Assembly: GCA_003599475.1 (NCBI GenBank)
Contig: QZKK01000242.1
Location: forward strand, 1 to 20,434
Direction: 5' to 3'
Length of the DNA: 20,434 nucleotides
Origin: Desulfobacteraceae bacterium
GTDB taxonomy: Bacteria > Desulfobacterota > Desulfobacteria > Desulfobacterales > SURF-15
Every line of letters starts with the position of its first letter. Positions within the stretch are counted from its first letter, which is position 1. The notes beneath the pieces are model-generated. The model was not told the origin of the DNA. It worked only from the letters and a program-made list of their open reading frames with translations, and did not search any database. Positions 1 through 19,331 of this stretch are shown piece after piece. Made by a program: the position numbers and the translations under genes.

Positions 1-558
1 CCTTTCGGTCGGCGTCCAGGCTCGCCTGAGTTTCGTAAGCGTCAGCGAGGTTCCGGAATGTGCGGTTGAGCGTGCTCGCCCGGTTTCCAAGGCGATTGCG
101 TCTGTGCCTTCGATTTCATCGAGCGTTTCGCGGCTCTCGATGCCGTCCCAGTCGATTTTGGCATGCAATGTTTCAATTTTTGAGTTGCTTGAACCCTTGG
201 AGACGCTGTCAACTTCCAATTGGCGAGCAAGCTTGTGGGCAGCGAGCCGCCCGATGCCCTTCGATCCCGTGTAACGGCGATGGAAGATGTCGGAGCGTCT
301 CTCCCCTTGATCCTTGAGGCGGGACGCAACACGCAGGAATCCGGTCACAAACCGCTCGCTTGTCATGCCCGTTCCGTTGTCGCTCACTACGATACGGCCG
401 ATTTCGGGGCGATCCAATTGCTGGCCGTGGACCGTGACCTCGGTTGCATCCGCATCATAGGAGTTTTTGATCAGCTCGATAAGCGCCGTGGAATCCCGTC
501 CGACAAGAAGCTCACCAAGCTCTCGGAACAGGTGCGTGTCGACTGTGAACTTAGGCAT
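1..558 (-). CDS. GHKL (Hsp90/MutL/MORC-like) ATPase, N-terminal 186 residues; runs off the left edge
   Basis: The reading frame stays open from an ATG at 558 to the window edge, so the C-terminus is missing. The visible 186 residues hold the complete set of GHKL nucleotide-binding motifs. The N-box is at residues 24-39 (TALIELIKNSYDADAT, with the catalytic Glu and Mg-binding Asn). The G1 box DNGTGM is at 60-65 and the G2/lid motif GSKGIGRLA at 98-106. This order and the short N-terminus fit an Hsp90/MutL/MORC-type ATPase better than a sensor kinase, because no histidine-phosphotransfer or transmembrane region precedes the domain. A GAGGG Shine-Dalgarno lies 5 bases before the ATG. The start overlaps the stop of the upstream methyltransferase gene by 8 bases (ATGCCTAA), implying translational coupling. 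GHKL ATPases beside DNA methyltransferases are known from restriction-modification-like operons (prokaryotic MORC/MutL-like families). The precise role here is inferred. Confidence 0.88.
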   Translation of the reverse strand, partial: MPKFTVDTHLFRELGELLVGRDSTALIELIKNSYDADATEVTVHGQQLDRPEIGRIVVSDNGTGMTSERFVTGFLRVASRLKDQGERRSDIFHRRYTGSKGIGRLAAHKLARQLEVDSVSKGSSNSKIETLHAKIDWDGIESRETLDEIEGTDAIALETGRARSTAHSGTSLTLTKLRRAWTPTER

Positions 559-2284
559 TTCGCCCTCTATCGGCTCCAGGTTGGCGCTGTGCGGCAAGCA
601 TCGAACAGGCGTGCTGCAAAGCTCGAATATCTTTCGTCTCAAGCCGCAACCCTTCACCCAATACGACCTTGTCCGCTCTTCGGCGGGCCTCCTCCTCGAA
701 ACCGTCTCGAAGCATGCGGTCTACCTCTTCAAACATGAGACCGGCAGATGGTGCAATCGGTATCGGCGCCATGCTCAGCGTACCGGGTTCAAGCTTGAGC
801 ACGCCGCCTCCGTAGCGACGACCGTGCAATTCAGCCCAAGCTCTTACGAAGCTCGTAAGAAATCCAAGAACAATCACTTCCGGAGAAATTTCCAGATCTT
901 TTTTCCATTGGACGGAATGCAGGGTATTGCTGCAGTGATAACGAGCGGAATTGATGACAAGCAGAGGCGAACCGAGGCGTGCGCATGTCGCGAAGGCATC
1001 CGGAACCGGAGGGGTCTTCAGCCTGAACCAGTCCGCACGCTGTGAGCACTTGAATCGATTTTCCACGCCTGCAGCAATTCCCTCTTCAATCCATCGCCGT
1101 ACGCCGGGATGACTGTCAAATCTTTGCATCGGCCGCACAAGAAAAACACTCGATCCTGCCTTCTCAAGATCCTGATGATCCTCCCTCGTAAATCGGAGAC
1201 CTGAAAGCCACCTTGTCTTGGCCACCACCGGTAATCGGGCGTTGCATGGGATGCCAAGCGTTTTTAGATCCTTTGTGCTTCGGATGAAATGGCGGTTGGC
1301 CCCCGTGACCAATCCAATTCGAACAGCGGCGATATCGCCCATACCATGGACCATTTCATGCTTTTTCAATTTGTCGAGCAGATCAATTGTCTCCGTGCTG
1401 ATTGCCCGGCCGTTTGCATTCGTTACATGCGACGTGGCCCATCGCTTGTTCGATTTTTTAAGAAGGTCCTCCAGATCCTCGGCGCGTTCTATGGCCTCTA
1501 TTTGGATTTTCCCTTTTTTTCCATAATCTGAAGCGGCCACGACAACGACAGGCTCGACCGTCCCTTCAAACAGTCTATCGCGAATATGGATCAGAAAGAC
1601 ATGACCGAAACGCTCTGTGAGTGCGTTGCGCACTGGAATTGCATAGTCGGCCTGGAGAATCGCTTCAGGAACCAGCATGGCCAATCGTCCCCCTTTTTCA
1701 ATGAAGCTCAGGGCGTGGACAAGAAAGTAGGCCCAAGTGCTTGCGGTTGCCGGAAGAGGAACTCCAGATGTTTCGACGGCATTTCTGGCTGCGTCTCTCC
1801 TCGAACCTTTGAGCCAGTGGTGCCTGACGTAAGGTGGATTTCCAACGATTGCCTTGAAAGGAGCGCCGGGTAATTCCCTGGGAGAAAGCTCAAGGAAGTC
1901 TCGAATTATACAGTTTTCTTTACGGAGCTCGTGACGGTTTTGAACGTGCTCGATGCAGCTTGGATCCACATCGACTCCGAAAACGAGACGGCTGGGCTCC
2001 TTTATCCCCTTTTTTGCCAGCACCCGGGTGGCTGCGGTGAGGAACGAACATCCACCGAAACTAGGATCGAGTACCGTTCCGTTTATGTCTGAAAGAGTCC
2101 AATTAACCAAAATTTCTGCAAGGTTTTCAGGTGTGTAGTACGCGCCTAACAAACGTTTGAGAGAAACATCAGACCCGTTGTAGGAAACGATTGCTTCCCC
2201 AGGGGATTGTCTCTCATGGGAAAGATTGTGCGGGACCTCGGTAATATTCGGCCCACTCGTGGCTATATGTGGCTGCTGGGCCAT
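551..2284 (-). CDS. N6-adenine DNA methyltransferase, Eco57I/TaqI-like (gamma class)
   Basis: This 577-residue protein is predicted to methylate adenine N6 in a specific DNA sequence. Motifs appear in gamma-class order: motif X YYTPENLAE (49-57), motif I DPSFGGCSF (73-81, SAM binding), motif II GVDVDP (103-108) and catalytic motif IV NPPY (149-152). The C-terminal half resembles the TaqI-like target-recognition region and ends with the family-typical YGGGVLKLEPG (491-501). The length fits a stand-alone methyltransferase, since no helicase or nuclease domain is visible. The ATG at 2284 has a GGAG Shine-Dalgarno 7 bases upstream and a possible extended -10 promoter at 2314-2322. The gene overlaps a GHKL ATPase gene downstream, so the two probably act together in a defence or modification system whose other genes lie to the left. 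The target sequence cannot be predicted. Confidence 0.92.
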   Translation of the reverse strand: MAQQPHIATSGPNITEVPHNLSHERQSPGEAIVSYNGSDVSLKRLLGAYYTPENLAEILVNWTLSDINGTVLDPSFGGCSFLTAATRVLAKKGIKEPSRLVFGVDVDPSCIEHVQNRHELRKENCIIRDFLELSPRELPGAPFKAIVGNPPYVRHHWLKGSRRDAARNAVETSGVPLPATASTWAYFLVHALSFIEKGGRLAMLVPEAILQADYAIPVRNALTERFGHVFLIHIRDRLFEGTVEPVVVVAASDYGKKGKIQIEAIERAEDLEDLLKKSNKRWATSHVTNANGRAISTETIDLLDKLKKHEMVHGMGDIAAVRIGLVTGANRHFIRSTKDLKTLGIPCNARLPVVAKTRWLSGLRFTREDHQDLEKAGSSVFLVRPMQRFDSHPGVRRWIEEGIAAGVENRFKCSQRADWFRLKTPPVPDAFATCARLGSPLLVINSARYHCSNTLHSVQWKKDLEISPEVIVLGFLTSFVRAWAELHGRRYGGGVLKLEPGTLSMAPIPIAPSAGLMFEEVDRMLRDGFEEEARRRADKVVLGEGLRLETKDIRALQHACSMLAAQRQPGADRGRNA

Positions 2285-2665: not shown

Positions 2666-3580
2666 ATGCTTCAACCGAAACTAGAGTCCAAATCCACCGT
2701 ATTGAACGAACCACTGACGGTTCATGCCGGCGCACTGGCTCTGCTGGCCGCAACACTTTGGGGCGGGATGAATATCTCCATCAAAGTTTCCCTCGACGGA
2801 ATCCCCCCGCTCGCACTGGCGGCCATGCGGTTTGTGATCGGGATTGCGGTCGTGCTTGTTTGGACTTCCTTGAATCGGGTGCCGATCCGGATGAAGGATG
2901 GAGAAAAGCGAGGAATGGTTCAACTGGCGCTTCTCTTCGTTTTGCAGATCGGGGTTCTCAATATCGGAACTCATTTCACCCTCGCCAGTCGTTCGACAGT
3001 GCTCAACTCGACGCATCCGTTTTTTACCGCTGTCTTTGCTCACCTCTTCCTGACCGGAGATCGATTGAGCAGGCTGAAGGTGATCGGAATGAGCTGCTCG
3101 TTTCTCGGAGTGGTGGTAATTTTTTCCGAGAGCATCGCATTCGGCGACTTTCAGTATCTCAAAGGCGATCTGCTCATGTTATCCTCGGGGATGCTGCTCG
3201 GGCTGCGCCTTGTCTACACGAAACGCCTGGCGCAGGGCATGCACCCCGGAAAGCTTCTTGTCTGGCAATCCTCCTTGAGCATTCCGATTTTTTTCGTCCT
3301 CAGTGCTGTTTTCGAAAAGGATTTCAACTACAGATTCGATGCTGCCGTCGTTTTGGGGGTTTTATATCAGGGGGTGGTGATTGCAGGGTTCTGTTTCATT
3401 CTCTGGACGACGCTGCTGCGCCGCTACATGGCCAGCCGTCTGGGCGTGTTCCACTTTGTCACGCCTGTATTCGGTGTCTTGTTCAGCAACCTGCTGCTTG
3501 GCGAACCGATTTCATACGGCATCATCGCCAGCATGGTTTTGGTCGGAATCGGTATTGCGGTCGTAAACTCCGAGAGTTAA
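2666..3580 (+). CDS. EamA/DMT-superfamily transporter
   Basis: This 304-residue inner-membrane protein has about ten hydrophobic segments arranged as two EamA repeats, roughly residues 15-150 and 165-300. The first repeat opens with the family-typical ALLAATLWGGMNISIK. The second ends with a helix containing LLLGEPISYGIIASMVLVGIGI. Family members mostly export amino acids, nucleosides or other small metabolites; the substrate here is unknown. The ATG at 2666 follows a GGGAG ribosome binding site. The gene is monocistronic as far as can be seen. It converges on the OsmC gene, and a large inverted repeat fills the gap between their ends. Confidence 0.9.
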   Translation: MLQPKLESKSTVLNEPLTVHAGALALLAATLWGGMNISIKVSLDGIPPLALAAMRFVIGIAVVLVWTSLNRVPIRMKDGEKRGMVQLALLFVLQIGVLNIGTHFTLASRSTVLNSTHPFFTAVFAHLFLTGDRLSRLKVIGMSCSFLGVVVIFSESIAFGDFQYLKGDLLMLSSGMLLGLRLVYTKRLAQGMHPGKLLVWQSSLSIPIFFVLSAVFEKDFNYRFDAAVVLGVLYQGVVIAGFCFILWTTLLRRYMASRLGVFHFVTPVFGVLFSNLLLGEPISYGIIASMVLVGIGIAVVNSES

Positions 3581-3590
3581 ACGATCATGC

Positions 3591-3697
3591 GAGTGTTCAG
3601 GGGTTCAGTGTTCAGTGTTCAGCCAAGCCGTCCATCTGTCGGGATCGATAATAAAATCCAATTCCTGAACACTGAACCCCTGAACACTGAGCACTCA
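3591..3697. repeat. Inverted pair of GTTCAGT-type heptad arrays between convergent genes
   Basis: The left arm (3593-3615) consists of TGTTCAG/GGTTCAG units. The right arm contains its exact 23-base reverse complement (3665-3687), and further units extend both arms (left to 3622, right to 3697). About 49 bases separate the matching arms. The right arm ends one base before the OsmC stop codon, and the left arm starts 10 bases after the EamA stop. It could fold as a long hairpin and act as a bidirectional terminator, although neither side has a clean T-tract. The same unit recurs at 6981, 7135, 12040, 15542 and 15684. Confidence 0.9.
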
Positions 3698-3698
3698 C

Positions 3699-4172
3699 TT
3701 ACTGCTCCTCGATTTCCGTTTCCCACGAGCAGTCGATGCAATTGCGCACACTCTGGTATGCAGGGCACTTTTCCGCATAAACCGACAGCGCCCGATCCGC
3801 CTTTTCCCTCGTGCCGGTTGGAATGATAAGGTGGTAGCGAAGGCGGATCTTGGTGATTTTCAATACACCGTCCACATCCTCGATGTCACCTTCGACATCG
3901 GTTACCAGATTCTCAGCCGATGGAATTCCCCGCGCTTCCAGCGCGGCACCTAATGTTCCCGCCAGTCAGCCGGAAACTCCGGCAATGATGTAATCGAGGG
4001 TGGCCGGGTATTCCGGGCCTGTGATTTTGCGGCCGTACTTCTGCTGGTAAAAATCGCGAATGCCGCCGTGAACGCCAAAGTGGATCGGCCCGGAAAAGCC
4101 ATCGATGCGGGCCGAACGGTGAGATCCCTCATGCTTGATGATACGGATTCGGCTGGTATGTGCGACAGTCAT
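3699..4172 (-). CDS. OsmC-family protein, predicted selenoprotein (Sec69 encoded by TGA at 3968-3966)
   Basis: Two collinear segments in the same frame are separated by a single TGA. Reading it as selenocysteine gives one 157-residue protein, a normal OsmC length. The first segment is 68 residues (MTVAHTSRIRI...DYIIAGVSG). The second begins LAGTLGAALEARGIP and includes EKCPAY with Cys136. OsmC/Ohr proteins use two redox cysteines: one at the head of the long central helix, and one in a C-P motif later. The TGA falls at the first and Cys136 at the second, so catalysis would use a Sec/Cys pair, probably in peroxide or thiol redox chemistry. The ATG at 4172 has a strong GGAGGTG ribosome binding site 4 bases upstream. 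A SECIS-like hairpin starts 19 bases after the TGA. OsmC-like selenoproteins have, as I recall, been reported in environmental and deltaproteobacterial data. A nonsense-mutated pseudogene is the alternative, made unlikely by the TGA position and intact downstream frame. Confidence 0.88.
3922..3968 (-). promoter_or_regulatory. Putative bacterial SECIS element with its UGA codon
   Basis: In the minus-strand transcript the UGA (3968-3966) is followed after 19 bases by a 6-bp all-GC stem CCGCGC/GCGCGG (3946-3941 with 3935-3930). The stem closes on the five-base loop UGGAA. An outer GGAA/UUCC pairing (3959-3956 with 3925-3922) can extend it. The loop has a G at its second position, 26 bases after the UGA. 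This fits the usual bacterial SECIS rules of a small G-containing apical loop about 16-37 bases from the UGA. SelB would bind here to insert selenocysteine. Confidence 0.8.
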
Positions 4173-4194
4173 TTTTCACCTCCATTTTCTTGAT

Positions 4195-4300
4195 GATAGA
4201 TGCTTGATGCTGGATCCTGGGTTCAGATGCTGGATGCCGGTTTCCGGATGCTGGATAAAAATTCCCGTTCGAATCCAGCACCCAGCATCAAGCACCTATC
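4195..4300. repeat. GATGCTG-type heptad arrays forming an inverted repeat
   Basis: The left block (4206-4253) is heptads GATGCTG, GATCCTG, a six-base GGTTCA, then GATGCTG, GATGCCG, GTTTCCG and GATGCTG. The right arm (4282-4300) is the reverse complement of 4195-4213 with one mismatch. The right arm runs into the 3' end of the SUMF1-domain gene and specifies its last residues and TGA stop. The left arm lies just upstream of the ribosome binding site of the OsmC gene. A one-arm copy of the family occurs at 7102-7120. Confidence 0.85.
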
Positions 4301-5040
4301 GGTATATTTTTTACGCATCGGAATCCCAGCCAGTGGGCTCCGTTTACGACATCTTCCGGACTCCAGCGGCATGTGATCCTTACAAATGAAGGCGATCCCA
4401 GAAAGCAGCCGCCTCGCATCGGTAAAAGATCCTCGATCCAGCGGCCTTCGCACATCTCCCATACGTTTCCGCACATGTCGTAGCATCCATAAGGGCTGAC
4501 CCCCTGGTCAAAAAGGCCGATCTCGGATGTATGTTCCAGACCGTAGCCCTTGTAGTTGCACCGGTCGGGCAGGAAGGTATGCCCCCATGCCCAAAGGCGG
4601 CCGTCGCTTCCGCGCCCGGCTTTTTCCCACTGCTGCTCCGTCGGAAGAGACTTTCCCGCCCACTCCGCATAGGCGCGTGCATCATCCCATCCGACGAAAA
4701 CAACCGGCTGAAGCGGTTGGTCCCATCCCGGTTCATCCCAGAGAAGGGGAGGGTCGTGGCCGGTTTGTTCCACAAATTTGCGGTACTGATAGTTGGTTAC
4801 CGGATAGCGGTCGATATAGTAGGATTCGAGATAGACCGAACGGGCAGGAACCTCCGTCGCAAACACGTGGTTCCATTTCTGTTCGATCAAATAAATCTGC
4901 ACCAACTGTTCTTCCGTTATCCCCATCGTAAACTGACCTTCAGGAACCAATACCATCTCGGCGCTATCCACAGGGGAGATGAGTTTATCCGGCAATGGGG
5001 CCGAACCGAGCTGTTCTCGAATATCCCAGCGATTCTGCAA
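4288..5040 (-). CDS. SUMF1/FGE-domain protein without the FGE catalytic cysteines
   Basis: This 250-residue protein is nearly all a formylglycine-generating-enzyme/sulfatase-modifying-factor fold. Typical motifs are MVLVPEGQFTMG (29-40), YYIDRYPVTNYQY (74-86), LPTEQQWEKAGRG (132-144), GNVWEMCEG (191-199), RGG (209-211) and GFRCV (239-243). True FGEs need a cysteine pair after the RGG motif. Here that stretch reads RGGCFLGSPSFVRITC, with Gly and Val near those positions, so sulfatase activation is unlikely. Related SUMF1 proteins include ergothioneine/ovothiol-type oxidases and non-enzymatic binding modules. The start used is TTG at 5040, with AGGA 8 bases upstream; ATG at residue 29 is an alternative. 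No signal peptide is seen. It lies 115 bases upstream of the OsmC gene on the same strand and may be co-transcribed with it. Its last codons lie in a repeat arm. Confidence 0.85.
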   Translation of the reverse strand: MQNRWDIREQLGSAPLPDKLISPVDSAEMVLVPEGQFTMGITEEQLVQIYLIEQKWNHVFATEVPARSVYLESYYIDRYPVTNYQYRKFVEQTGHDPPLLWDEPGWDQPLQPVVFVGWDDARAYAEWAGKSLPTEQQWEKAGRGSDGRLWAWGHTFLPDRCNYKGYGLEHTSEIGLFDQGVSPYGCYDMCGNVWEMCEGRWIEDLLPMRGGCFLGSPSFVRITCRWSPEDVVNGAHWLGFRCVKNIPIGA

Positions 5041-5197
5041 GACGTTTTTCCTATCGGAGGAGTCAGTCTGGATTCAATCCATCGTTTTTTTCAATATAGC
5101 AGAACTGTTTCCAAAACAAAAACGTCTTTCAACTGCAAATGATGATGCCTCGGAGCGGATTATCGATCGCGGTGCCCATCTGCTGGAAAAAGTTCAA

Positions 5198-5227
5198 TTG
5201 ACAATCCTTGAAAATATAGGATATACG
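5198..5227 (+). promoter_or_regulatory. Possible sigma70 promoter for the GntR-regulator operon
   Basis: A consensus -35 TTGACA (5198-5203) is followed by TATACG (5222-5227) at 18 bases, or by GATATA at 16 bases. The GGTGAGG ribosome binding site starts about 5 bases after the -10, so the leader would be very short. The regulator could bind and autoregulate here, but no obvious operator palindrome is visible. Confidence 0.4.
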
Positions 5228-5243
5228 ATTCGGTGAGGTGCGG

Positions 5244-5951
5244 ATGAGTATCGCTTATAAAACCAAAACGGATGTGGTGCGGGAAAAGCTTCGAAAGGAT
5301 ATCCTGGAAGGGCGTATCAAACCCGGCTGTCGCATCATCATATCCGAGATGGCCAAAGAATTCGGTCTGAGTGAAATCCCCGTCCGGGAAGCCATCCGTC
5401 GCCTGGAAAGCGAAGGGCTTATACAGTATACCCCTCATGTGGGCGCCGCCGTAAGCATCATCGACGAAAATGAATTTTTTGAAATCTACCTGATCCGAAT
5501 CGAACTGGAAGTTCTGGCCACCCGGTTGGCGGTTCCGCATATCGGTCATAGGGCATTAAGCAAATTGAAAAACCTGATGAGCAGGGCGGAGGCAGCGGTC
5601 GGACAGGGGATGCACGAGAAGCTGGGCCCGCTGAACAAGGATTTTCACCTGTCGATTTATCAGGCGGGGCCGTATGCCCATCTCTATAAGATGATCGTCG
5701 ATCTGTGGGACAAATTCGAGTTCTCGAACAGGGTTTTTTCGTACGTGCCGGACCGGGCAGCCGGTTCCTGGGAGGAACATCTCAGGATTCTCAAGGCAAT
5801 CGAAAGCGGGGATGCCGATACGGCGGCGGAGCTGGTCAGGATGCAGAAGCACAGGACCAAGAAGGCGTTGGAGCAATCGCTTGCAAAAAGCACCGGAAGG
5901 GTGCCGGGAAAAATCGAACCGGTCGATCCGGTTGGGATACGGAACGCATGA
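5244..5951 (+). CDS. GntR-family transcriptional regulator, FadR/FCD subfamily
   Basis: This 235-residue regulator has an N-terminal winged helix (about residues 8-70), including LRKDILEGRIKPG and the recognition region SEIPVREAIRRLESEGL. An all-helical FCD ligand-binding domain follows (about 80-215). Histidines in DFHLSIYQ, EEHLRILKAI and QKHRTKKAL fit the metal-binding FCD type that senses small carboxylic acids. I chose the ATG at 5244 because GAGG lies 5 bases upstream; GTG at 5238 would add two residues. The stop overlaps the next start (ATGA), so it is co-translated with the homoserine-dehydrogenase-like gene. It probably controls this gene and the downstream aminotransferase and transporter genes in response to their substrate; that role is inferred from context. 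Confidence 0.92.
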   Translation: MSIAYKTKTDVVREKLRKDILEGRIKPGCRIIISEMAKEFGLSEIPVREAIRRLESEGLIQYTPHVGAAVSIIDENEFFEIYLIRIELEVLATRLAVPHIGHRALSKLKNLMSRAEAAVGQGMHEKLGPLNKDFHLSIYQAGPYAHLYKMIVDLWDKFEFSNRVFSYVPDRAAGSWEEHLRILKAIESGDADTAAELVRMQKHRTKKALEQSLAKSTGRVPGKIEPVDPVGIRNA

Positions 5952-6982
5952 AAAAAAGACTGATTCTTTGCGGGTTCGGAAACGTCGGAAGAACCTTCGG
6001 GCGCATGATCGAGGACCGTCGGGAGATGGTGCGGATGAAATACGGGTTGGACCTGGAAATCGCAGCGGTGGTCGATATCGGCGGAGCGGCTGTTGCAAAG
6101 GAAGGGGCTCTGCCGCTCGATAGGCTTCTGAGGCATGTGGAAAACGGCGGTCCGGTTGAATCCTTGGAGGGATTCGGTTTCCCGGGGATATCCGGCCAGG
6201 AGGTGCTCTCGACGTTGAATGCGGAGGTTCTCGTCGAAACCACCCCGACCAACCTGAAGGACGGAGAGCCGGGAAGAAGGCACATCACCGCGGCTCTAAA
6301 CAGCGGACTCGATGTCGTATCCGCCAACAAGGGGCCGCTGGTCCTATACTTCAGGCAGCTCATGGACTTGGCCTCGGAAAAAGGCCGTCGAATCATGATG
6401 AGCGCGGCAACCGCCGCCGCACTCCCCTCGCTGGATGTGGGTCTGCTGTGCCTGGCGGGTGCACGGGTGCTCGCCATCGAGGGAATACTAAACGGGACCA
6501 CGAACTTCATCCTGACGCGGATGCGGAAAGAAGGATGCAGCTATGAAGCGGCCCTTCGTGAAGCACAGAAAATGGGGATTGCCGAAACCGATCCCAGCCT
6601 CGATGTGGAAGGCTACGACACCCGAAACAAGCTGGTTCTGATTGCAAACCGTATTTTCGATAAGAACTTCGGAACGGCCGATGTGGCTGTGAGCGGGATT
6701 TGCGGCATCTCGGGGGAAGACATCGAAAGAGCCGGTTCGCTCGGAAAAGTGCTCAAGCTCGTCGGTTCCGCAGAATTCGAAGAAAACGAGCTGAAGCTTC
6801 GCGTCGAACCCAGGGCGCTCGATCCGGACCACCCGCTTTCTTCGATCGACTTTTCCGAAAAAGGGATCAGCTACCTGACCGACACCATGGGGAGGGTGAC
6901 GGTGACCGGGGGCAAGAGCTCTCCGGTCGGAGCTGCGGCCGCCCTGCTGAAGGATCTGATCCACCTGTCGATCCTGAGATGA
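5948..6982 (+). CDS. Homoserine dehydrogenase-like enzyme (no ACT domain)
   Basis: The 344-residue protein should catalyse NAD(P)-dependent interconversion of aspartate semialdehyde and homoserine, or a related reaction. Visible features are the Rossmann motif GFGNVG (9-14), SANKGPL (125-131), GILNGTTNFIL (179-189) and the catalytic segment DVEGYDTRNK (219-228, Lys228). The frame is open further upstream, but the ATG at 5948 gives the standard family N-terminus (MKKRLILCGFGNVG) and overlaps the regulator stop by four bases. It lacks the C-terminal ACT domain of feedback-inhibited HSDs (about 430 residues) and has no fused aspartate kinase. Its setting, with a GntR regulator, aminotransferase and importer instead of thrB/thrC, suggests a specialised or catabolic role. 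The asd gene for the semialdehyde lies about 11 kb away. Confidence 0.88.
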   Translation: MKKRLILCGFGNVGRTFGRMIEDRREMVRMKYGLDLEIAAVVDIGGAAVAKEGALPLDRLLRHVENGGPVESLEGFGFPGISGQEVLSTLNAEVLVETTPTNLKDGEPGRRHITAALNSGLDVVSANKGPLVLYFRQLMDLASEKGRRIMMSAATAAALPSLDVGLLCLAGARVLAIEGILNGTTNFILTRMRKEGCSYEAALREAQKMGIAETDPSLDVEGYDTRNKLVLIANRIFDKNFGTADVAVSGICGISGEDIERAGSLGKVLKLVGSAEFEENELKLRVEPRALDPDHPLSSIDFSEKGISYLTDTMGRVTVTGGKSSPVGAAAALLKDLIHLSILR

Positions 6983-7008
6983 GTGTTCGGCGTTCAGATT
7001 CATAGAAC

Positions 7009-7046
7009 GTTGAAATCGTTAAAGTCGTTAAAATCGTTGAAATCGT
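7009..7046. repeat. Four 9-base tandem units GTTGAAATC
   Basis: Four units run in exact 9-base register: GTTGAAATC, GTTAAAGTC, GTTAAAATC and GTTGAAATC. They are followed by GT. No opposite-orientation arm is present in the same gap. The period differs from the 7-base arrays on either side, so this is a separate family. Confidence 0.85.
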
Positions 7047-7101
7047 ACCCACAGAGCGCAGGCAGAGAAATTTGATACGATCAAACAGGCGCCCATGATG
7101 A

Positions 7102-7120
7102 CCAGCATCCAGCATCAAGC
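7102..7120. repeat. One-arm copy of the GATGCTG heptad family
   Basis: The reverse complement reads GCTT followed by GATGCTG, GATGCTG and G. This is the same vocabulary and 7-base period as the block at 4206-4253, about 2.9 kb away. No partner arm is visible in this gap. Confidence 0.7.
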
Positions 7121-7190
7121 GACCGGTGGCTCGGCTGAACACTGAACACTGAACACTACTGAATCAGAATTCAGACAGGAGATGTGAAAA

Positions 7191-8360
7191 ATGAAGATAG
7201 CAGACCGAATGGAATCGATTCCCTTTTCAGGGATTCGAAAGGTTTTCGAAGAGGTGATCCGCCGGGAGAAAGCCGGAGAAAAGATCATTCACTTGAACAT
7301 CGGGCGGCCGGATTTCGATACGCCCAAAAACATCAAAGAAGCCGCAAAGAAAGCTCTGGACGAGGGTAAAGTCCATTATGCGTCCAATTACGGCATCCCC
7401 GAGCTCAGGGACGCCATCGCCCGGAAGCATGAGAAAGAAAACCGTCTCACCTACGATCCCGCCTCTGAAATCGTGGTTACCGCAGGGGCAAACGAGGGGG
7501 TTTTGCTGGCCATGATGGGGCTTCTCAACCCGGGCGACGAGGTGCTGATTCCGGATCCGGTATGGCTGCATTATTTCTACTGTGCAAGAATGGCGGGGGC
7601 CGAGCCGATTTCGGTTCCCACCCGGCAGGAAAACGAATTCGTTCCGAGCATCGACGATTTCAAAGCCCTGATCACCCCAAGGACCAGGATGATCGTGTTG
7701 ACCACTCCGAACAACCCCACCGGGGCGGTGGCAAGCAGAAACGCGCTGGAGGCATTGGCGAAGCTTGCCAGAGAAAAGGATCTCTTCGTCATGTCCGATG
7801 AGATCTACGAATCGATGGTCTATGACGGCAGCAGGCATATCAGCATCGCCGGTCTTCCCGGAATGAAGCAGCGCACCATCGTCGTCAACGGATTTTCCAA
7901 GAGATACTCCATGACCGGGTGGCGCCTGGGCTGGATTGCTTCCGACAGGGAGCTGGTTTCGGCAATGATCCGCATCCATCAGTACACCACCGTCTGTGTG
8001 ACCACTTTCGCCCAGCATGGCGCCGTCGAAGCGCTGACGGGACCGCAGGGTGAGATCGAAGCGATGATTGCCGAATTTGATCGGAGAAGAAAGCTTGTCT
8101 ACGATAGGCTCTCGGCCATGCCCGGAGTCAGTACCTTGAAGCCAAAGGGCGCATTTTACATATTCCCCAACATCGAGGGCACCCGTAAATCCTCTGAACA
8201 GATCACGCAGTATCTTCTTGAAAACGCAAAGATCGCCGTCGTTCCCGGCAGCGTCTTCGGAAAATACGGGGAGGGCTACATCCGCATCTCCTATGCGAAT
8301 TCGTATGAAAACCTGGAGAAGGCGATGGATAACATGCATGCCGCACTGAAGAAGCTCTGA
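7191..8360 (+). CDS. Class I PLP-dependent aminotransferase (aspartate aminotransferase-like)
   Basis: This 389-residue cytoplasmic enzyme should transfer an amino group between an amino acid and a 2-oxoacid. Fold-type I hallmarks are visible: Tyr67 region YASNYGIPELRDAI, TTPNNPTG (171-178), SDEIYE with Asp203 and Tyr206, the PLP lysine Lys237 in NGFSKRYSMTGWRLGW, and carboxylate-binding Arg365 in GYIRISYA. This fits the I-gamma-type aspartate aminotransferase family, whose members vary in substrate. The ATG at 7191 has AGGAG 9 bases upstream. A repeat-filled gap of 208 bases separates it from the HSD-like gene, and 111 bases separate it from the binding protein gene. It probably acts on the compound imported by the downstream ABC system; that is inferred. 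Confidence 0.93.
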   Translation: MKIADRMESIPFSGIRKVFEEVIRREKAGEKIIHLNIGRPDFDTPKNIKEAAKKALDEGKVHYASNYGIPELRDAIARKHEKENRLTYDPASEIVVTAGANEGVLLAMMGLLNPGDEVLIPDPVWLHYFYCARMAGAEPISVPTRQENEFVPSIDDFKALITPRTRMIVLTTPNNPTGAVASRNALEALAKLAREKDLFVMSDEIYESMVYDGSRHISIAGLPGMKQRTIVVNGFSKRYSMTGWRLGWIASDRELVSAMIRIHQYTTVCVTTFAQHGAVEALTGPQGEIEAMIAEFDRRRKLVYDRLSAMPGVSTLKPKGAFYIFPNIEGTRKSSEQITQYLLENAKIAVVPGSVFGKYGEGYIRISYANSYENLEKAMDNMHAALKKL

Positions 8361-8369
8361 AGGGGAAAG

Positions 8370-8390
8370 TGAAACCCGAAACCTGAACTC
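8370..8390. repeat. Short TGAAACC-type heptad block after the aminotransferase gene
   Basis: Three units in register, TGAAACC, CGAAACC and TGAACTC, lie 10 bases after the aminotransferase stop. The first two are identical to units in the right arm at 12201-12214. No opposite arm is evident before the next gene. Confidence 0.6.
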
Positions 8391-8471
8391 TCATTTACAT
8401 GGCGCGGTCCTGCCGGATTTTCAAAGGACAGGATCGATCTAAACCCAAAACGCAAATCAGGAGAAATCAAA

Positions 8472-9455
8472 ATGAAACGGTTGAGAAGTTTATCGGTTTT
8501 CTTGGTCGTGTCCGTTGCAGTGCTCGGCATCGCTTTCAGCGCCCCGGCGGCCGATAAAGTACGGGTCGCCCTGGGAGATGTCGCCTCCGTTGAAACCCTT
8601 TGCCTGATCGTAGCCCTCGATCGCGCCAAGGATCGCGGGCTCGACTATGAGATGACGGCATTCTCCAAGGAGGAGCTTGCCATCCAGGCCATCATCAACG
8701 GCCAGATGGATGTCGGCATCGGAACCCCTTACTCGGTCATTCAGAAAACCAACGTCCCGCTTCGCAATTTCTTCCAGGTGAGCAAGCTGGTTTTTTACCC
8801 GGTGGTATCCAAAGAGTATAAAACATGGAAGGACCTGGACGGTCAACCCTTTGCCTTCCATGCCCGAGGGACCGGCACCGAAGCGATCGGAAACATCATC
8901 GCGAAACGGGAGAACATTTCGTTCGGCACCCGAAGCTACATTCCCGGTTCCGAGAACCGGATCATCGCCATGATGAAGGGGCAGGTCAAAGCGACCATCG
9001 TCGACCTGGCCAACAAGAACCTTCTGATGAGCAAGGCGGGGGATCGTTTTCACGTGCTGCCGGGAGTTTCCGACCCGGTCAGCGACGAGGTTCTGTTCGC
9101 CGATCTGGGCTGGTTGAAAAAAAATGAGGAGAAAGCGACGATTCTGGCAGAAGAGCTCCTGCGGACGTGGCGGGAAATGCTCAAGGATCCCACAATCATC
9201 GAGAAGGAGAGAAAGAAGCGGAACCTGCTTTCAGACCTCCCCAAAGAACTGTTGGCGGAAGTGGATTCCTTCTACAAGCAGGCTGTCGAGGGGGGGCTTT
9301 ACGACCCGAACGGCGGAGGTGCAAGCGCAGCCAAATCGGACTTCGAGTTCTATGTAAATGCCGGTCAGTTGAAGGGGCCGGTAGAAAGCCTGAAAGTCGA
9401 AGACTTCTGGTATCTTGCTCCGCTGGAAGCGGCCAAGGCCAAACTCGGTAAATGA
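8472..9455 (+). CDS. ABC importer substrate-binding protein, NMT1/TauA/SsuA-like
   Basis: This 327-residue periplasmic protein should capture the substrate for the downstream permeases and ATPase. The N-terminus is a classical Sec signal peptide: MKRLR, a hydrophobic stretch (about 7-22), then SAPA with cleavage predicted after Ala26. No lipobox cysteine is present, so it should be soluble. The mature part has an NMT1/THI5-like pattern (VRVALGDVAS, QAIINGQMDVGIGTP, FAFHARGTGTEAIG). That family binds taurine, alkanesulfonates, nitrate, pyrimidine precursors or aromatic acids, and the ligand here is not readable. AGGAG lies 8 bases before the ATG. A strong hairpin right after the stop may let this gene be expressed above the permeases. 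Confidence 0.9.
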   Translation: MKRLRSLSVFLVVSVAVLGIAFSAPAADKVRVALGDVASVETLCLIVALDRAKDRGLDYEMTAFSKEELAIQAIINGQMDVGIGTPYSVIQKTNVPLRNFFQVSKLVFYPVVSKEYKTWKDLDGQPFAFHARGTGTEAIGNIIAKRENISFGTRSYIPGSENRIIAMMKGQVKATIVDLANKNLLMSKAGDRFHVLPGVSDPVSDEVLFADLGWLKKNEEKATILAEELLRTWREMLKDPTIIEKERKKRNLLSDLPKELLAEVDSFYKQAVEGGLYDPNGGGASAAKSDFEFYVNAGQLKGPVESLKVEDFWYLAPLEAAKAKLGK

Positions 9456-9464
9456 GTTGACTCT

Positions 9465-9509
9465 AAAGCCGGCTGCCCTCGGGCAGGCGTGCCATCGGCA
9501 GCCGGCTTT
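9465..9509 (+). terminator. 13-bp perfect hairpin after the binding-protein gene
   Basis: AAAGCCGGCTGCC (9465-9477) pairs perfectly with GGCAGCCGGCTTT (9497-9509) around a 19-base loop. It starts 9 bases after the stop codon. The 3' flank (CAATTTC) is only weakly T-rich, so it may be a partial terminator or an mRNA-stabilising 3' structure inside the operon. Uneven binding-protein versus permease expression by this means is common in ABC operons. Confidence 0.65.
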
Positions 9510-9519
9510 CAATTTCATC

Positions 9520-9682
9520 GGAATGATGGAATATTGGAAGAATGGAATATTGGAAGAATGGAATGTTGGGATGAAAGCGCAATGGAATCACGGTGCATCA
9601 AAGCATCCGATTGAGGGGTCGATCCAGAAAGACAGAATTCCGCCAAACCCACTATTCCAACATTCCAGTATTCCATCATTCC
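9520..9682. repeat. Inverted pair of 8-base (GGAATATT-type) arrays before the permease gene
   Basis: The left array (9521-9568) has six octads in register: GAATGATG, GAATATTG, GAAGAATG, GAATATTG, GAAGAATG and GAATGTTG. The right array (about 9652-9682) is the reverse complement of similar octads. Bases 9520-9539 pair with 9663-9682 with a single G-U wobble. About 120 bases of non-repeated sequence lie between the arms. It lies between two genes of one importer, so it probably inserted or grew inside an operon. Confidence 0.85.
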
Positions 9683-9689
9683 AAAAAAT

Positions 9690-9710
9690 AACCGATAACC
9701 GATAACCATT
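9690..9710. repeat. Three AACCGAT-type heptads directly upstream of the permease start
   Basis: Units AACCGAT, AACCGAT and AACCATT run in 7-base register and end 8 bases before the permease ATG. They occupy the place where a ribosome binding site would be expected. The reverse complement (GGTTATCGGTT) resembles the array vocabulary at 19174-19208. Confidence 0.7.
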
Positions 9711-9718
9711 CAGTAAAC

Positions 9719-10483
9719 ATGGCTTCTTTTCTCCGGCATCCGATAACGTTGAGGATTTTTTCGATTGTCATCGTGTTCGGCGCATGGGAATATGCGGGCC
9801 GCATTCCGATCAGCCCGGCATTTCCGACTTTTCTGGAAACGATGGCCGCTCTTTTCGGCATGATCGCAGACGGCTCCATGATCGCCGTCTACCCCGTTAC
9901 CCTCCAGCCCCTTGCCATCGGCCTTGTCATATCCTCTCTTCTAGGGGTGGGTTGCGGGATCTTCATGGGGCTCAATGAAAAAGCGGAATGGTTCGGAGCC
10001 CCGATTTTCATCGTGCTGCAGGCTGCACCGCTTGCGGCCCTTGTACCGCTTCTTACTTTCGTCTACGGCATCGGGCTCACATCGAAGGTTCTCACCGTCT
10101 GCATCATGGCTCTTCCCGGCATCGTCTTGAATGCCTTCAACGCCGTGCGGCACACTCCCCAGTCCCTGATCGAGATGGGCAGCTCCTATCTGGGGAGTCG
10201 ACGTCAGATCATCCTGAAGATCATCCTGCCTTCCGCCAGTCCGATCATCTATGCGGGTCTGCGTCTGGGCGCTGCGATGGGATTCATCGGCGCAATTCTC
10301 GCCGAACTGATGATCACTCCGACAGGAATCGGCGATCTGATCACCTATAACCAGTCGGTGGCCGAATACCCCAAGATGTATGCAGCCATCTTTTCGATCA
10401 TGGTTTTTGCGGTGGTCTTCATCGAAGTTTTAGAGCGGTCCGAATACAGATTTTTCAGACCGGACAAGAGGGTAGATTCATGA
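9719..10483 (+). CDS. ABC importer permease 1 (SsuC/TauC-like)
   Basis: This 254-residue inner-membrane protein has about six hydrophobic segments. The binding-protein-dependent permease signature is visible as EMGSSYLGSRRQIILKIILP followed by a glycine-rich helix (about residues 149-190). That EAA loop docks with the ATPase. The ATG at 9719 gives a family-like N-terminus, but no Shine-Dalgarno is seen because heptad repeats run up to 8 bases before it. The stop overlaps the ATPase start (ATGA). Together with permease 2 it probably forms a heterodimeric channel, whereas SsuC/TauC systems usually use two copies of one permease. Confidence 0.92.
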   Translation: MASFLRHPITLRIFSIVIVFGAWEYAGRIPISPAFPTFLETMAALFGMIADGSMIAVYPVTLQPLAIGLVISSLLGVGCGIFMGLNEKAEWFGAPIFIVLQAAPLAALVPLLTFVYGIGLTSKVLTVCIMALPGIVLNAFNAVRHTPQSLIEMGSSYLGSRRQIILKIILPSASPIIYAGLRLGAAMGFIGAILAELMITPTGIGDLITYNQSVAEYPKMYAAIFSIMVFAVVFIEVLERSEYRFFRPDKRVDS

Positions 10484-11274
10484 ACACCCCCATCGAATCC
10501 GTTTTAGAGACTCCGGTCTCCGCCGCCGTCTCCGTCGAAAAGATCTCAAAAGTCTACCCCGGGGGAGTCGAGGCCCTCAACGGCATGACGCTTCAGTTTC
10601 CGAAGGGGGAACTCACTTCCCTGCTCGGGCCTTCCGGCTGCGGAAAAACGACCCTGTTGAAGATCATCGCAGGGCTTCTCCCGCCGACCTCCGGAACGGT
10701 TAAGGTCAACGGCCGGCAGGTCAAAGGCCCGGGGCCGGAGCGCGCCTTCGTGTTCCAGGATTTCGCCCTGCTGCCTTGGGCCTCGGTGATCCGCAACGTC
10801 GCCTTCGGATTGGAACTTCGCGGTGTGGCGAAATCCGAACGCATGGCGGTTGCGGAGAGACAGATCGCCAGCGTGGGGCTGAAGGGATTTGAAAATCATT
10901 ATCCCCATCAACTGTCCGGAGGCATGCGGCAGCGGGTGGGGCTGGCGCGTGCGCTCGCCGTAAATGCCGAAGTCCTTTTGATGGATGAACCTTTTTCGGC
11001 GGTCGATGAGCAGACCCGCAGGAAATTTCAGGAAGATCTCTTGGGGGTGGTACAGAACGAACGGAAGACTTTTATCTTCGTCACTCACTCGATCGAAGAG
11101 GCGGTCTACCTTTCAGACAGCATCGCCTTGTTGCTCCCGCGGCCCGGCCGCGTTTCCGAAATCATCAAGCCCAGGATCCGGCGCGACATCAGCCCGGATG
11201 CGATCCGCAGGGATGCCGTTTATCTGGATACGGTAGAGCGCATCTGGCAAGGCCTGCGGCGCTACATCGAATAG
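10480..11274 (+). CDS. ABC importer ATPase (SsuB/TauB-like)
   Basis: The 264-residue cytoplasmic ATPase powers the importer. All ABC motifs are intact: Walker A GPSGCGKTT (50-58), Q-loop Gln93 in VFQDFALLPW, signature LSGGMRQ (145-151), Walker B LLMDEP (166-171), D-loop SAVDEQ and H-loop His203 in VTHSIEEA. The phrase VFQDFALLPW is typical of nitrate/taurine/sulfonate-type ATPases. An N-terminal extension of about 17 residues precedes the domain. The gene starts within the stop of permease 1 and lies 10 bases before permease 2, so the three are one transcriptional unit. Confidence 0.95.
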   Translation: MNTPIESVLETPVSAAVSVEKISKVYPGGVEALNGMTLQFPKGELTSLLGPSGCGKTTLLKIIAGLLPPTSGTVKVNGRQVKGPGPERAFVFQDFALLPWASVIRNVAFGLELRGVAKSERMAVAERQIASVGLKGFENHYPHQLSGGMRQRVGLARALAVNAEVLLMDEPFSAVDEQTRRKFQEDLLGVVQNERKTFIFVTHSIEEAVYLSDSIALLLPRPGRVSEIIKPRIRRDISPDAIRRDAVYLDTVERIWQGLRRYIE

Positions 11275-11284
11275 AGGAAGCGGT

Positions 11285-12037
11285 ATGAAACTGTTTGGAA
11301 TCAAGCTGCCCACAACGGCCTCGCTGATCATCTGGGCGCTGATCTGGGAAATCATCGGCCGGTTCGAACTGTCGATTCTGCTGCCGCCCTTGAGCCATGT
11401 GTTTATCCGGATGTACGAGATCATTCCCACCGCGACATTTTTCAACGCGTTCTGGATCACGGCAAGATGCTTTTTGATCGGTACCGGCATTGCCATCGTC
11501 GTCGGAATCCCGATCGGGGTCCTGATGGGCCGGTCCGTTCTCTTCGATCGGATGCTCCTGCCGTGGGTGAACATGTTTTTGAGCGCACCGCTGACCGCCC
11601 TGGTTCCGGTTTTGATGACACTTTTCGGTTTTGGTGAAAAGACCATCATCCTCACCACCCTGCTGTTTGCGATCTGGATCATCGTTCTCGATGCGCGCGC
11701 CGGGGTTAAGGGGATTTCGACTTCACTCGTAGAGATGGCGCACTCTTACGGCGCCAACCCCTGGCAGTCGTTTATGAAGATATATGTCTGGGCGGCATTG
11801 CCGGAGATTCTGGCCGGGATCCGCCTGGGTTCGATCCGGGCGATAAAGGGAGTCATCATCGGACAGCTTCTCGTTTCGATCGTCGGCTTCGGCCGGCTGT
11901 TCGAGCTCTACTCATCCAATTTTTTGATGGAACACATGTGGGCCATACTGCTGGTGCTTTTCTTTTTTGCATTTCTTCTGGCGGAAGTGCTTCAAAAGAT
12001 CGAACGCAAGTTCGAATACTATGCCTCATCCAGATAG
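11285..12037 (+). CDS. ABC importer permease 2 (SsuC/TauC-like)
   Basis: This 250-residue membrane protein has about six hydrophobic helices and the permease loop EMAHSYGANPWQSFMKIYVW followed by ALPEILAGIRLG. It is clearly different from permease 1 but of the same family. A GAGGA ribosome binding site lies 7 bases before the ATG. The stop codon (TAG, 12035-12037) is followed within two bases by a heptad repeat array. It is the last gene of the importer cluster and converges on the prepilin peptidase gene. Confidence 0.93.
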   Translation: MKLFGIKLPTTASLIIWALIWEIIGRFELSILLPPLSHVFIRMYEIIPTATFFNAFWITARCFLIGTGIAIVVGIPIGVLMGRSVLFDRMLLPWVNMFLSAPLTALVPVLMTLFGFGEKTIILTTLLFAIWIIVLDARAGVKGISTSLVEMAHSYGANPWQSFMKIYVWAALPEILAGIRLGSIRAIKGVIIGQLLVSIVGFGRLFELYSSNFLMEHMWAILLVLFFFAFLLAEVLQKIERKFEYYASSR

Positions 12038-12039
12038 AG

Positions 12040-12235
12040 TGTTCAGTGTTCAGGGTTCAGGGTTCGGGGTTCGGGAAGGAGCAGGGAAGAGACGAACGAT
12101 TAAGCTGGCCCGGTTTAGCTAATTTGAAATTTGAGACTTGAACATTGTTTGGAATTTGGTGCTTGTGATTTGTGATTTTGCAGGCGGCCGGCGGCTTCGC
12201 TGAAACCCGAAACCCGACACCCGACACCTGAAACC
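12040..12235. repeat. Five-plus-five heptad arrays in opposite orientation between convergent genes
   Basis: The left array (12040-12074) is five heptads in perfect register: TGTTCAG twice, GGTTCAG, then GGTTCGG twice. The right array (12201-12235) is five heptads of the opposite strand sense: TGAAACC, CGAAACC, CGACACC twice and TGAAACC. Both fit a general NNTTCRGG-like unit, but the arms are not exact complements, so a stem would be imperfect. The left array begins two bases after the permease stop, and the right array ends on the first base of the prepilin peptidase stop codon (12235-12237). Confidence 0.88.
12121..12180. repeat. Third heptad array (AATTTGA/TTGTGAT type) nested between the two arms
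   Basis: Eight heptads in register run from 12121 to 12176: AATTTGA twice, GACTTGA, ACATTGT, TTGGAAT, TTGGTGC and TTGTGAT twice, followed by TTTG. The composition is AT-rich, unlike the flanking GC-richer arrays, and no reverse-complement partner lies in this gap. Confidence 0.75.
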
Positions 12236-13011
12236 TAAGGTGTAATCAGCCCGAAATACCAGGAGATCAAATCCGGGCCGATAAAGATGTACGCGATGGC
12301 TCCGATGGAAAGAAACGGGCCGAAGGGGATGGCAAGCTTCAGGCCTCCTTTCTGGTGCAGCATCACCAAGACTCCGGATATCGTTCCCACCGCAGAAGCC
12401 GAAAATATTGTAAACAGAACCCCCTGCCATCCGACAAAGGCTCCGATCATCGCCAGCAGCTTGATGTCTCCACCCCCCATGCCTTCTTTCCCCGTAATCG
12501 AATGATATCCCCATGCGATGACATAAAGGATCCCGCCGCCGATCAAAATGCCCGAAAGCGATTCTTTGAAGGTGATTTCAGGCAGCAGGAAAGATGCTGA
12601 AAAGCCGATCAGAATGCCCGGAAGACTGATCCCGTCCGGGATGATTTGAAAATCGATATCGATATATGTGATTACCAGGAGGCTTGCGATAAAACCGTAA
12701 TAGATGAGGGCTTCCCAGCTCAGGCCGTAGCGCAGGTAGGTCAGTACGGCAAATGCGCCGCCCATGATTTCAATGACGATATACCTCAACGGGATACCGG
12801 CTCCACAGGCGCGGCACCTGCCCCTGAGGAGAAGGTAGCTGATGACGGGAATGTTGTCGTAGAATGGAATGTCGATTCCGCACTCCGGGCAGGCCGATCC
12901 CGGATAGATGATCGATTTTTTAATCGGCAGCCGATAGATGCAGACGTTCATGAAGCTGCCGATGCACAATCCGAAAATAAAGATGATGACGTCGGAAAAA
13001 AAATCTGGCAT
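12235..13011 (-). CDS. pilD: Prepilin peptidase (type IV leader peptidase, A24 family)
   Basis: The 258-residue inner-membrane aspartic protease cleaves leader peptides from type IV pilins or type II secretion pseudopilins and N-methylates the new N-terminus. The N-terminal domain has GSFMNVCIYRLP (18-29) and a zinc-type four-cysteine module, CPECG (41-45) and CRACG (66-70). The peptidase domain has YIDIDFQIIPD (116-126) and GGGDIKLL (179-186), which hold the two catalytic aspartates, within about seven membrane helices. The length matches bifunctional PilD/GspO. No pilin or secretion gene adjoins it, so its partners are elsewhere. It is divergent from lon across 155 bases. Its ribosome binding site is weak. 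The symbol could equally be gspO. Confidence 0.93.
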   Translation of the reverse strand: MPDFFSDVIIFIFGLCIGSFMNVCIYRLPIKKSIIYPGSACPECGIDIPFYDNIPVISYLLLRGRCRACGAGIPLRYIVIEIMGGAFAVLTYLRYGLSWEALIYYGFIASLLVITYIDIDFQIIPDGISLPGILIGFSASFLLPEITFKESLSGILIGGGILYVIAWGYHSITGKEGMGGGDIKLLAMIGAFVGWQGVLFTIFSASAVGTISGVLVMLHQKGGLKLAIPFGPFLSIGAIAYIFIGPDLISWYFGLITP

Positions 13012-13106
13012 AGGTTATCGCTCGACTTTCTGTTTGAATGCTCGTATCTTCTAAAAGAGCGATCATTTGTTGTCAAATGAAAATTATGCTTTACTTTTGT
13101 ATGTTT

Positions 13107-13120
13107 CGTATCAGGATACG
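13107..13120. promoter_or_regulatory. Small dyad CGTATC-AG-GATACG upstream of lon
   Basis: Two perfect 6-base arms separated by two bases lie 46 bases before the lon ATG, in the divergent gap shared with the prepilin peptidase gene. It could be an operator. I see no clear sigma32, CIRCE or consensus sigma70 promoter here; a TTGTCA near 13070 lacks a well-spaced -10. Confidence 0.35.
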
Positions 13121-13166
13121 GCCTTGCCGAATATGATCATTCAAAAATCCGATACCCGAGGAGCGC

Positions 13167-15542: not shown

Positions 15543-15713
15543 GTGTTCAGCGTTCAGTGTTCAGAGAAGAGACCCGATTGAACGTCTGACATCAAATTCC
15601 GCCAAGGGCGGGAAAAGCCCAACGTCGAATAAAGGAAAGATCATTCTCTGGATCAACCCTGACCGCTTGCAGCCGCGGCCTTGCTGAACACTGAACCCTG
15701 AACACTGAACACT
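15542..15713. repeat. Inverted GTTCAGT-type heptad arrays between lon and tsaB
   Basis: The left arm (15542-15564) begins with the last base of the lon stop codon and has units TGTTCAG, CGTTCAG and TGTTCAG. The right arm (15684-15713) has four reverse-complement units. Bases 15542-15564 match the complement of 15684-15706 at 22 of 23 positions. The 119-base interior contains a small CCGCC-AAG-GGCGG hairpin (15599-15611). The right arm ends just before the tsaB ribosome binding site. Confidence 0.9.
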
Positions 15714-15729
15714 TTAAGAGGGCTTATCG

Positions 15730-16428: not shown

Positions 16429-16517
16429 CGGATTTCCGCTAACGGATTTATATCCTTAAGATTTCAAGGGAATTGTTATCGAAGAGAACGGCAGGGATCG
16501 CCTTAAGATTATATTTA

Positions 16518-16546
16518 TTGACATTTACCTGTCCAAGTGATAGATA
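16518..16546 (+). promoter_or_regulatory. Sigma70 promoter for the psd-pssA operon
   Basis: A perfect -35 TTGACA (16518-16523) is separated by exactly 17 bases from TAGATA (16541-16546), preceded by an extended -10 TG at one base. It lies in the 168-base gap after tsaB and about 68 bases before the psd ATG. This is the best promoter in the window, and the gap lacks the repeat arrays seen elsewhere. Confidence 0.75.
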
Positions 16547-16614
16547 AGTCTACTTTAAGCCAAAATTCCGGTCTCTTACACTGAAGCCGTTTAGGATTGT
16601 TCAATCAAATAAAC

Positions 16615-18068: not shown

Positions 18069-18076
18069 TCATAACA

Positions 18077-18105: not shown

Positions 18106-18143
18106 AAATCCGAAATTGTTGCTTTTCATGAGAAAGGTGCACG

Positions 18144-19166: not shown

Positions 19167-19173
19167 GAGATGC

Positions 19174-19311: not shown

Positions 19312-19331
19312 ATAGATTGGAGCGTATTCGA

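Follow-up and report, generated by a model that had tools for sequence, protein, structure and literature searches.

The nearest described kind of system is the HEF_HK/Response_reg_2 set (Bellieny-Rabelo 2021, PMC8011034), in which, according to the portions of that paper available here, proteins made up of HATPase_c_3, HEF_HK and HATPase_c domains are encoded beside Response_reg_2 proteins and near restriction-modification (R-M) systems, where C5 methylases are conspicuous. The same portions mention uncharacterised neighbour groups (OG_20, OG_16 and others) that possibly include a fourth gene; the term “PIN domain” does not occur in them, and neither a fourth gene nor a PIN alternative was seen described there. 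MORC and paraMORC GHKL proteins are also found in R-M operons, the MORCs mostly with a helicase (Iyer 2008, PMC2292703), and the words “receiver” and “two-component” are absent from the text of that paper as available here. The present analysis concerns a stretch of 20,434 nucleotides from a Desulfobacteraceae bacterium (contig QZKK01000242.1; hereafter the window, meaning the whole stretch), at whose left end a DNA methyltransferase gene runs into the gene of a GHKL ATPase.

A four-gene cassette, comprising a DNA methyltransferase, a two-headed GHKL protein, a REC-domain protein and a small effector, is well supported in relatives of this pair. The two genes that fill positions 1–2284 of the window, both on the minus strand and in the order methyltransferase then ATPase, would be the front part of such a cassette, namely the methyltransferase and the N-terminal GHKL module. 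The stretch is probably the whole contig, with the remaining operon genes missing, so the continuation of the cassette is drawn from relatives. The features of the two genes are given below, with motif and box names that we take to be the usual ones; invariance in the methyltransferase refers to A5, an alignment of the methyltransferase.

2284–551, minus strand: gamma-class N6-adenine (N6A) DNA methyltransferase with an Eco57I-like C-terminal domain, 577 amino acids (aa), by Pfam and PADLOC; the class is presumed from the motif order
2129–2146, minus strand: GAYYTP, presumably the motif X region, from the translation; G47, Y50, T51 and P52 invariant
2051–2068, minus strand: DPSFGG, presumably motif I, for S-adenosylmethionine binding, from the translation; D73, P74, S75, G77 and G78 invariant
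1829–1840, minus strand: NPPY, presumably the catalytic motif IV, from the translation; N149, P150 and P151 invariant
785–811, minus strand: GGGVLKLEP, from the translation; G492, G493, G494, V495 and K497 invariant
551–558, minus strand: 8-base overlap ATGCCTAA of the methyltransferase stop and the ATPase start, read from the sequence
1–558, minus strand: N-terminal 186 aa of a predicted two-headed GHKL ATPase/histidine kinase, running off the contig end; HATPase_c_3 matched, second head read from relatives
445–477, minus strand: ELIKNSYDADA, presumably the N box; E28, N32 and D35 kept in 74 of 75 relatives
364–381, minus strand: DNGTGM, presumably the G1 box; D60, G62 and G64 in 75 of 75
244–267, minus strand: GSKGIGRL, presumably the G2 box; G98, K100, G101 and G103 in 75 of 75
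37–57, minus strand: SGTSLTL, presumably the G3 region; G in 75 of 75, T in 73 of 75

The methyltransferase matches N6_Mtase (E 1.1e-16), M_Eco57I_C (E 1e-12) and Eco57I in Pfam and scores 304 bits with the PADLOC model PDLC03267 MTase_II; these family matches point to a predicted cognate DNA methyltransferase of the kind that belongs to a Type II R-M system. Of 7999 proteins scored against it, 1684 reach E ≤ 0.001, and the protein (P0001) shares 66% identity over 93% with P0002. The P0001 cluster is present on two contigs, the second of which may reach further left.

The stop codon of the methyltransferase (TAA, 553–551) overlaps the ATPase start (ATG, 558–556), and the ATPase frame remains open to position 1, giving 186 aa from the ATG or 219 aa from an upstream GTG; the closest relatives are about 775 aa long. 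Family searches with the fragment (Pfam, NCBIfam and PADLOC) used the 219 aa frame, 1–657, and returned HATPase_c_3 at E 2.2e-18 with 67 bits, where 25 is the cut-off. The likeness of the GHKL module to MutL is weak (E 1.8e-7 with 30 bits, where the cut-off is 180; MutL in the PDB, E 2.2e-4). An earlier note, made from the letters of this DNA, had pointed to the 8-base overlap, to the off-edge frame and to intact GHKL motifs. All three stand, the last because at 12 positions in the four nucleotide-motif regions the window carries the residue of 73 to 75 of the 75 full-length relatives. Its remark that the ATPase gene lies antisense to longer plus-strand frames hardly holds, as these frames are 90, 85, 172 and 192 aa long against 186 or 219 aa for a frame that is itself cut off by the contig end.

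The best plasmid matches to the ATPase fragment, from a tblastn search that set no limit on target length, were proteins of 760 aa in Rhizobium sp. TH2 (51%) and 804 aa in Clavibacter californiensis (48%). Both proteins have an N-terminal HATPase_c_3 and a C-terminal HATPase_c of the histidine-kinase type, and both genes lie beside a methyltransferase, followed by two hypothetical genes. The methyltransferase is divergent from the kinase gene at the TH2 locus; at the Clavibacter locus it is annotated as hypothetical and is matched by PADLOC methyltransferase models.

A collection with one genome per species was scanned with A1, an alignment of the ATPase N-terminus, and the locus counts given here refer to the best 80 (L011–L090) of at least 541 relatives, with open reading frames (ORFs) called mechanically by script, without a gene finder. 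The C-terminal kinase domain, a second HATPase_c, occurs in 72 of the 80 loci. A REC-type gene likewise stands next to the ATPase in 72, where 60 belong to one family and 12 to another, the latter grouped by place and by the receiver-like look of the N-terminus, not by fold. The fourth slot is filled in 65 loci by one family (41), by a PIN-like protein (12: L043, L044, L050, L053, L054, L056–L059, L061, L064 and L066) or by a third family (12); in 53 of the 80, as against the 12 with a PIN-like protein, the fourth gene is of no recognised kind. Methyltransferases were counted where a profile match of at least 60 bits and 350 aa lay within 3 kb before or 6.5 kb after the ATPase, and 67 loci had one (47 N6A-type and 20 C5), in 57 within 200 bp of the cassette and in 10 farther away. 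Unlike this alignment scan, a single-sequence scan of genome contigs with the methyltransferase confirmed no relative.

The ten loci closest to the window, those with a methyltransferase above 700 bits on the window-type profile (L011, L012, L014, L015, L016, L017, L018, L019, L021 and L024), carry the titles Latescibacterota, Longimicrobiales, Caldilineaceae, Thiosymbion, Gemmatimonadota, Slackia, Bryobacterales, Thermoanaerobaculia, Deltaproteobacteria and Palauibacter. All ten have the order methyltransferase, two-headed ATPase, REC protein, as the window has for its part, and gene 4 is present in nine, the contig of L017 stopping before it. The 8-base overlap is kept in six (L011, L012, L014, L016, L018 and L024), the other four having 23, -1, -1 and -11 bases, where ATPase starts were set throughout by likeness to the start in the window. 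Identity to the window over aligned columns is 62–70% for the ATPase N-terminus and 46–54% for the methyltransferase, and the distances of the two proteins correlate over 11 loci (Mantel r 0.917, p 0.0001), which is consistent with one inherited unit and does not by itself prove a function. A search from the methyltransferase side with A5 (E ≤ 1e-100) gave matches in 4 of 298, 1 of 297, 1 of 350, 1 of 347 and 2 of 64 genomes, samples that may overlap and in which seven of the nine matches were genomes already in the starting set. The two new loci reached through the methyltransferase alone, L163 and L164, each contain the complete cassette of four genes in the usual order, in what is a small sample.

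Taken together with the 67 loci above, these two exclude the refuting case named in the earlier note, that the methyltransferase-ATPase pair is not conserved elsewhere; the pair is conserved well beyond this contig. The further operon genes expected to the left do follow in relatives, at the end that the contig lacks, and what was described as the edge of a possible system is more than that, a defined four-gene cassette being seen in relatives. A second refuting case, an ordinary sensor kinase as the C-terminus, half applies: the C-terminus is of the histidine-kinase type in 72 of 80 loci, but it forms one protein with a MutL/MORC-like GHKL module and has a methylase as its partner. Overall, the interpretation given in the note is partly supported.

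Some copies of the cassette depart from the common form. The ATPase frames of L007, L036 and L063, of 127, 432 and 364 aa, are short or broken, which makes these copies look decayed. A second branch (L069, L070, L072, L074–L077, L082, L083, L086, L087 and L089) has the different REC-type gene and, besides it, a gene of about 231 aa for which the one copy scanned gave no Pfam match; a C5 methylase was found in 11 of its 12 loci.

The candidate catalytic residues of the missing parts are well kept in relatives. The phospho-acceptor His of the kinase head, residue 559 in L016, occurs in all 75 two-headed proteins, and the receiver Asp, residue 57 in the REC protein of L016, occurs in all 32 REC proteins of alignment A3. 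Throughout the branch of the window, the N-terminal head keeps the G1 Asp while the C-terminal head has Asn in its place. Gene 4 has an invariant His, an invariant Arg and a nearly invariant Glu, and it returned no nuclease family or sequence in family and sequence searches. The occurrence of a PIN-like protein in place of gene 4 suggests that the effectors are exchangeable.

Compared with the nearest described kind, the proteins studied here have in common HATPase_c_3, a His dimerisation helix, a C-terminal HATPase_c, a receiver-type neighbour and R-M genes nearby, as far as the available portions of PMC8011034 describe that set. HATPase_c_3 lies at the N-terminus in the window, and the C-terminal HATPase_c was found in L001, L002, L016, L069, L008, L009 and L010. 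The named families themselves were not recovered: HEF_HK (PF19191) had no match at E ≤ 1 in L001, L002, L016, L069, L009 and L010 and reached 17.1 bits against 24.1 in L008, and Response_reg_2 (PF19192) matched none of the 32 A3 members at E ≤ 1, with 11 bits against 27 in L001. The partner methylase is more often N6A than C5 (47 against 20 of the 80 loci), unlike that set as portrayed in the same portions. There is a real chance that the cassette opens a class distinct from the HEF_HK/Response_reg_2 kind. L009 is an archaeal plasmid (Halomicrobium) with a two-headed kinase and a gene annotated as a response regulator, and an N-6 methylase lies about 1.2 kb upstream on the opposite strand.

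The likeness to MORC and paraMORC proteins, so far as the accessible text of PMC2292703 goes, lies in a GHKL module in R-M neighbourhoods; the difference lies in a cassette that has no helicase and has an extra histidine-kinase head and a receiver partner. A MORC domain and a nuclease or helicase as operon partner, which the earlier note suggested looking for, did not find support. The MORC S5 motif GhXhhpXXRhl, sought by regular expression, occurs in 0 of 75 relatives (the window fragment is too short to reach it). In paraMORC proteins the GHKL module is followed by an S5-fold domain; the relatives studied here have a conserved middle region of unassigned fold. The cassette proteins tested matched no restriction-nuclease family beyond the shared GHKL stretch. 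Among neighbour clusters, counted if common to at least 3 of 90 loci, the only helicase-type one recognised was a Type I restriction subunit at three loci (L012, L024 and L069), and a helicase-containing MORC operon was rejected as no cluster made a helicase a cassette gene. Single neighbours with helicase parts also occur, such as a UvrD-type gene in L001 and the PDC-S68 protein in L014. In the GHKL-Shedu protein VcSduA/paraMORC3, the GHKL ATPase is required for phage defence and the protein ends in a DUF4263 nuclease, according to the parts of PMC12137116 available; a Shedu-like (type I-D) nuclease fusion was rejected here, since the seven proteins with a C-terminal HATPase_c listed above end in that domain and have no DUF4263 in Pfam. 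The legend of Fig. 6F in the DefensePredictor paper (PMC13092281) names HATPase and REC among the domains of unvalidated predicted systems. The available parts of a BREX paper (PMC12839542) held nothing on the cassette, and in the literature covered (mostly open-access papers, without preprints or supplements) only PMC8011034 was recognised as treating the kinase-plus-receiver kind.

Known or candidate defence genes flank some of the copies, as the earlier note had anticipated, and this agrees with a defence function. Five flanking proteins, picked by eye, were scanned with PADLOC and gave four strong matches, to PDC-S68 (L014), REase_I/Type I restriction enzyme and PDC-S23 (L024) and PDC-S01 (L016), and one marginal match; in L001 the annotated GIY-YIG gene that follows the cassette matches PDC-S14. 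Relatives of the ATPase N-terminus also occur on mobile elements, in 77 plasmid records and on 64 viral contigs, of which 35 have a kinase head at the locus. One viral contig (L091) has the kinase, the REC protein, gene 4 and a C5 methylase in a row; the methyltransferase alignment found no match among the viral contigs.

On balance we lean towards a defence cassette of a restriction-modification-like kind, which may protect the cell from foreign DNA: a MutL/MORC-like sensor would drive His-to-Asp phosphotransfer and so release a small effector. The pairing of a methylase with a DNA-type GHKL module suggests that self is marked against non-self. The fused kinase, together with the receiver and a small last gene that can be exchanged, points to detection being converted to phosphotransfer and ending in an effector. 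The methyltransferase would mark host DNA, and the N-terminal MutL/MORC-like GHKL module would sense unmarked or abnormal DNA and change shape upon ATP binding. The C-terminal histidine-kinase module would then phosphorylate its own invariant His and the phosphate would pass to the REC protein, at its invariant Asp. The REC protein would in turn free or recruit the fourth protein. This last protein, PIN-type in the actinobacterial versions and unassigned in the type of the window, would conceivably act on the invading DNA or on the infected cell. The gene order, its conservation, the domain make-up and the candidate catalytic residues are features of the relatives; the defence function, the direction of signalling, the activity of the effector and the continuation of the window are what we infer from them.

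Several observations weigh against this defence reading. No other ORF of at least 60 aa in the window matches the kinase-head, REC, gene 4 or PIN profiles (E ≤ 1e-3), and among the 80 loci the methyltransferase was not found in 13 (some of them at contig ends), the kinase head is lacking in 8 and the REC-type gene in 8. The G1 Asp of the kinase head is Asn in 55 of 75 proteins, including all the closest relatives (residue 708 in L016), and ATP binding by such a head may be atypical. The C-terminal part of gene 3 gave weak DUF4423 matches in 4 of 32 proteins (best E 0.004), so that it could bind DNA and transcription control would fit as well. The flanking proteins were chosen by eye, without a background rate, and no enrichment near defence genes is therefore claimed. 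No report of an activity was found for a member of the branch in the same, mostly open-access literature.

The possibility of transcription control deserves the most weight among the alternatives, and we consider it unlikely. The kinase and the REC protein would then be a cytoplasmic two-component regulator for transcription of the methyltransferase and its neighbours, and the cassette would be regulatory or epigenetic and not defensive. In addition to DUF4423, the C-terminal part behind the REC fold shows weak helix-turn-helix or winged-helix matches (MarR_2 and IclR in L001; DprA_WH in 1 of 32), and the available portions of PMC8011034 speculate on signalling cascades that control R-M systems. 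Even so, a dedicated fourth gene, with a PIN-like replacement at 12 of the 80 loci, is more easily understood as an effector than as a member of a regulon, and the MutL likeness of the N-terminal module, weak as it is, also speaks for more than a regulator.

Slightly less probable again is that the fourth protein is itself a sequence-specific restriction endonuclease, in a Type II-like R-M system gated by the kinase pair. The methyltransferase is of the Type II kind (PADLOC MTase_II), no other nuclease candidate was seen in the cassette, and the conserved His, Arg and Glu of gene 4 could be read in this way; the absence of nuclease family and sequence matches argues otherwise. The PIN proteins that occupy the same slot elsewhere are mostly RNases, which also counts against an endonuclease.

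It is very improbable, and was already disfavoured, that the ATPase itself is a restriction enzyme of the BbrUII/HgiDII type (NF050001), with a single GHKL gene beside a methylase. The two have an N-terminal GHKL stretch in common, and the window fragment scores 89 bits with the NCBIfam BbrUII model (model positions 2–172), far below its cut-off of 550 bits though not decisive by itself for a fragment, and 60 bits with PADLOC REase_II; the 659-position NCBIfam model is matched at its first 176 positions or fewer, and full-length two-headed relatives score alike (71 bits in L016, 78 bits in L011). The known partners of HgiDII and BbrUII are 5-methylcytosine methylases (PMC5867850, in the parts available) and not N6A enzymes. 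The identity was rejected on this partial, sub-cut-off score over the GHKL stretch and on the N6_Mtase/Eco57I partner. As for an orphan methyltransferase lying by chance beside an unrelated ordinary sensor kinase, the AtoS and ZraS models do match the kinase C-terminus of two relatives, far below their cut-offs, but a chance pairing, to which we give almost no credence, is refuted by the methyltransferase near the ATPase at 67 of the 80 loci, which span many taxa, and by the 8-base overlap in six of the ten closest.

The remainder of the window, 2666–20434, appears by eye to be ordinary chromosome. From the translations we take its genes to encode, among others, a transporter, a formylglycine-enzyme-like gene product, a GntR regulator, homoserine dehydrogenase and an aminotransferase, and presumably also ABC uptake proteins (8472–12037), prepilin peptidase, Lon (13167–15542), TsaB, Psd, Pss, Asd, GreA and RpoZ.

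Returning to the restriction-modification-like defence cassette, a bolder version of it can be put forward tentatively, as one that we hold to be somewhat improbable. It would be a class of methylation-coupled immunity with His-Asp phosphotransfer, in which a MutL/MORC-like clamp would read unmarked DNA and a fused kinase with an unusual Asn in its G1 box would license a receiver-bound effector, for which a PIN-type nuclease and a functionally uncharacterised protein family would be interchangeable. The cassette would show a role for HEF_HK-like proteins and give a testable one to the fusion of GHKL and kinase modules, and it would bring to notice gene 4, an effector family with no assigned function. 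It also opens the question of whether phosphotransfer gates restriction. As a rule, two-component signalling is separate from DNA restriction, and a conserved cassette of this kind would weld the two.
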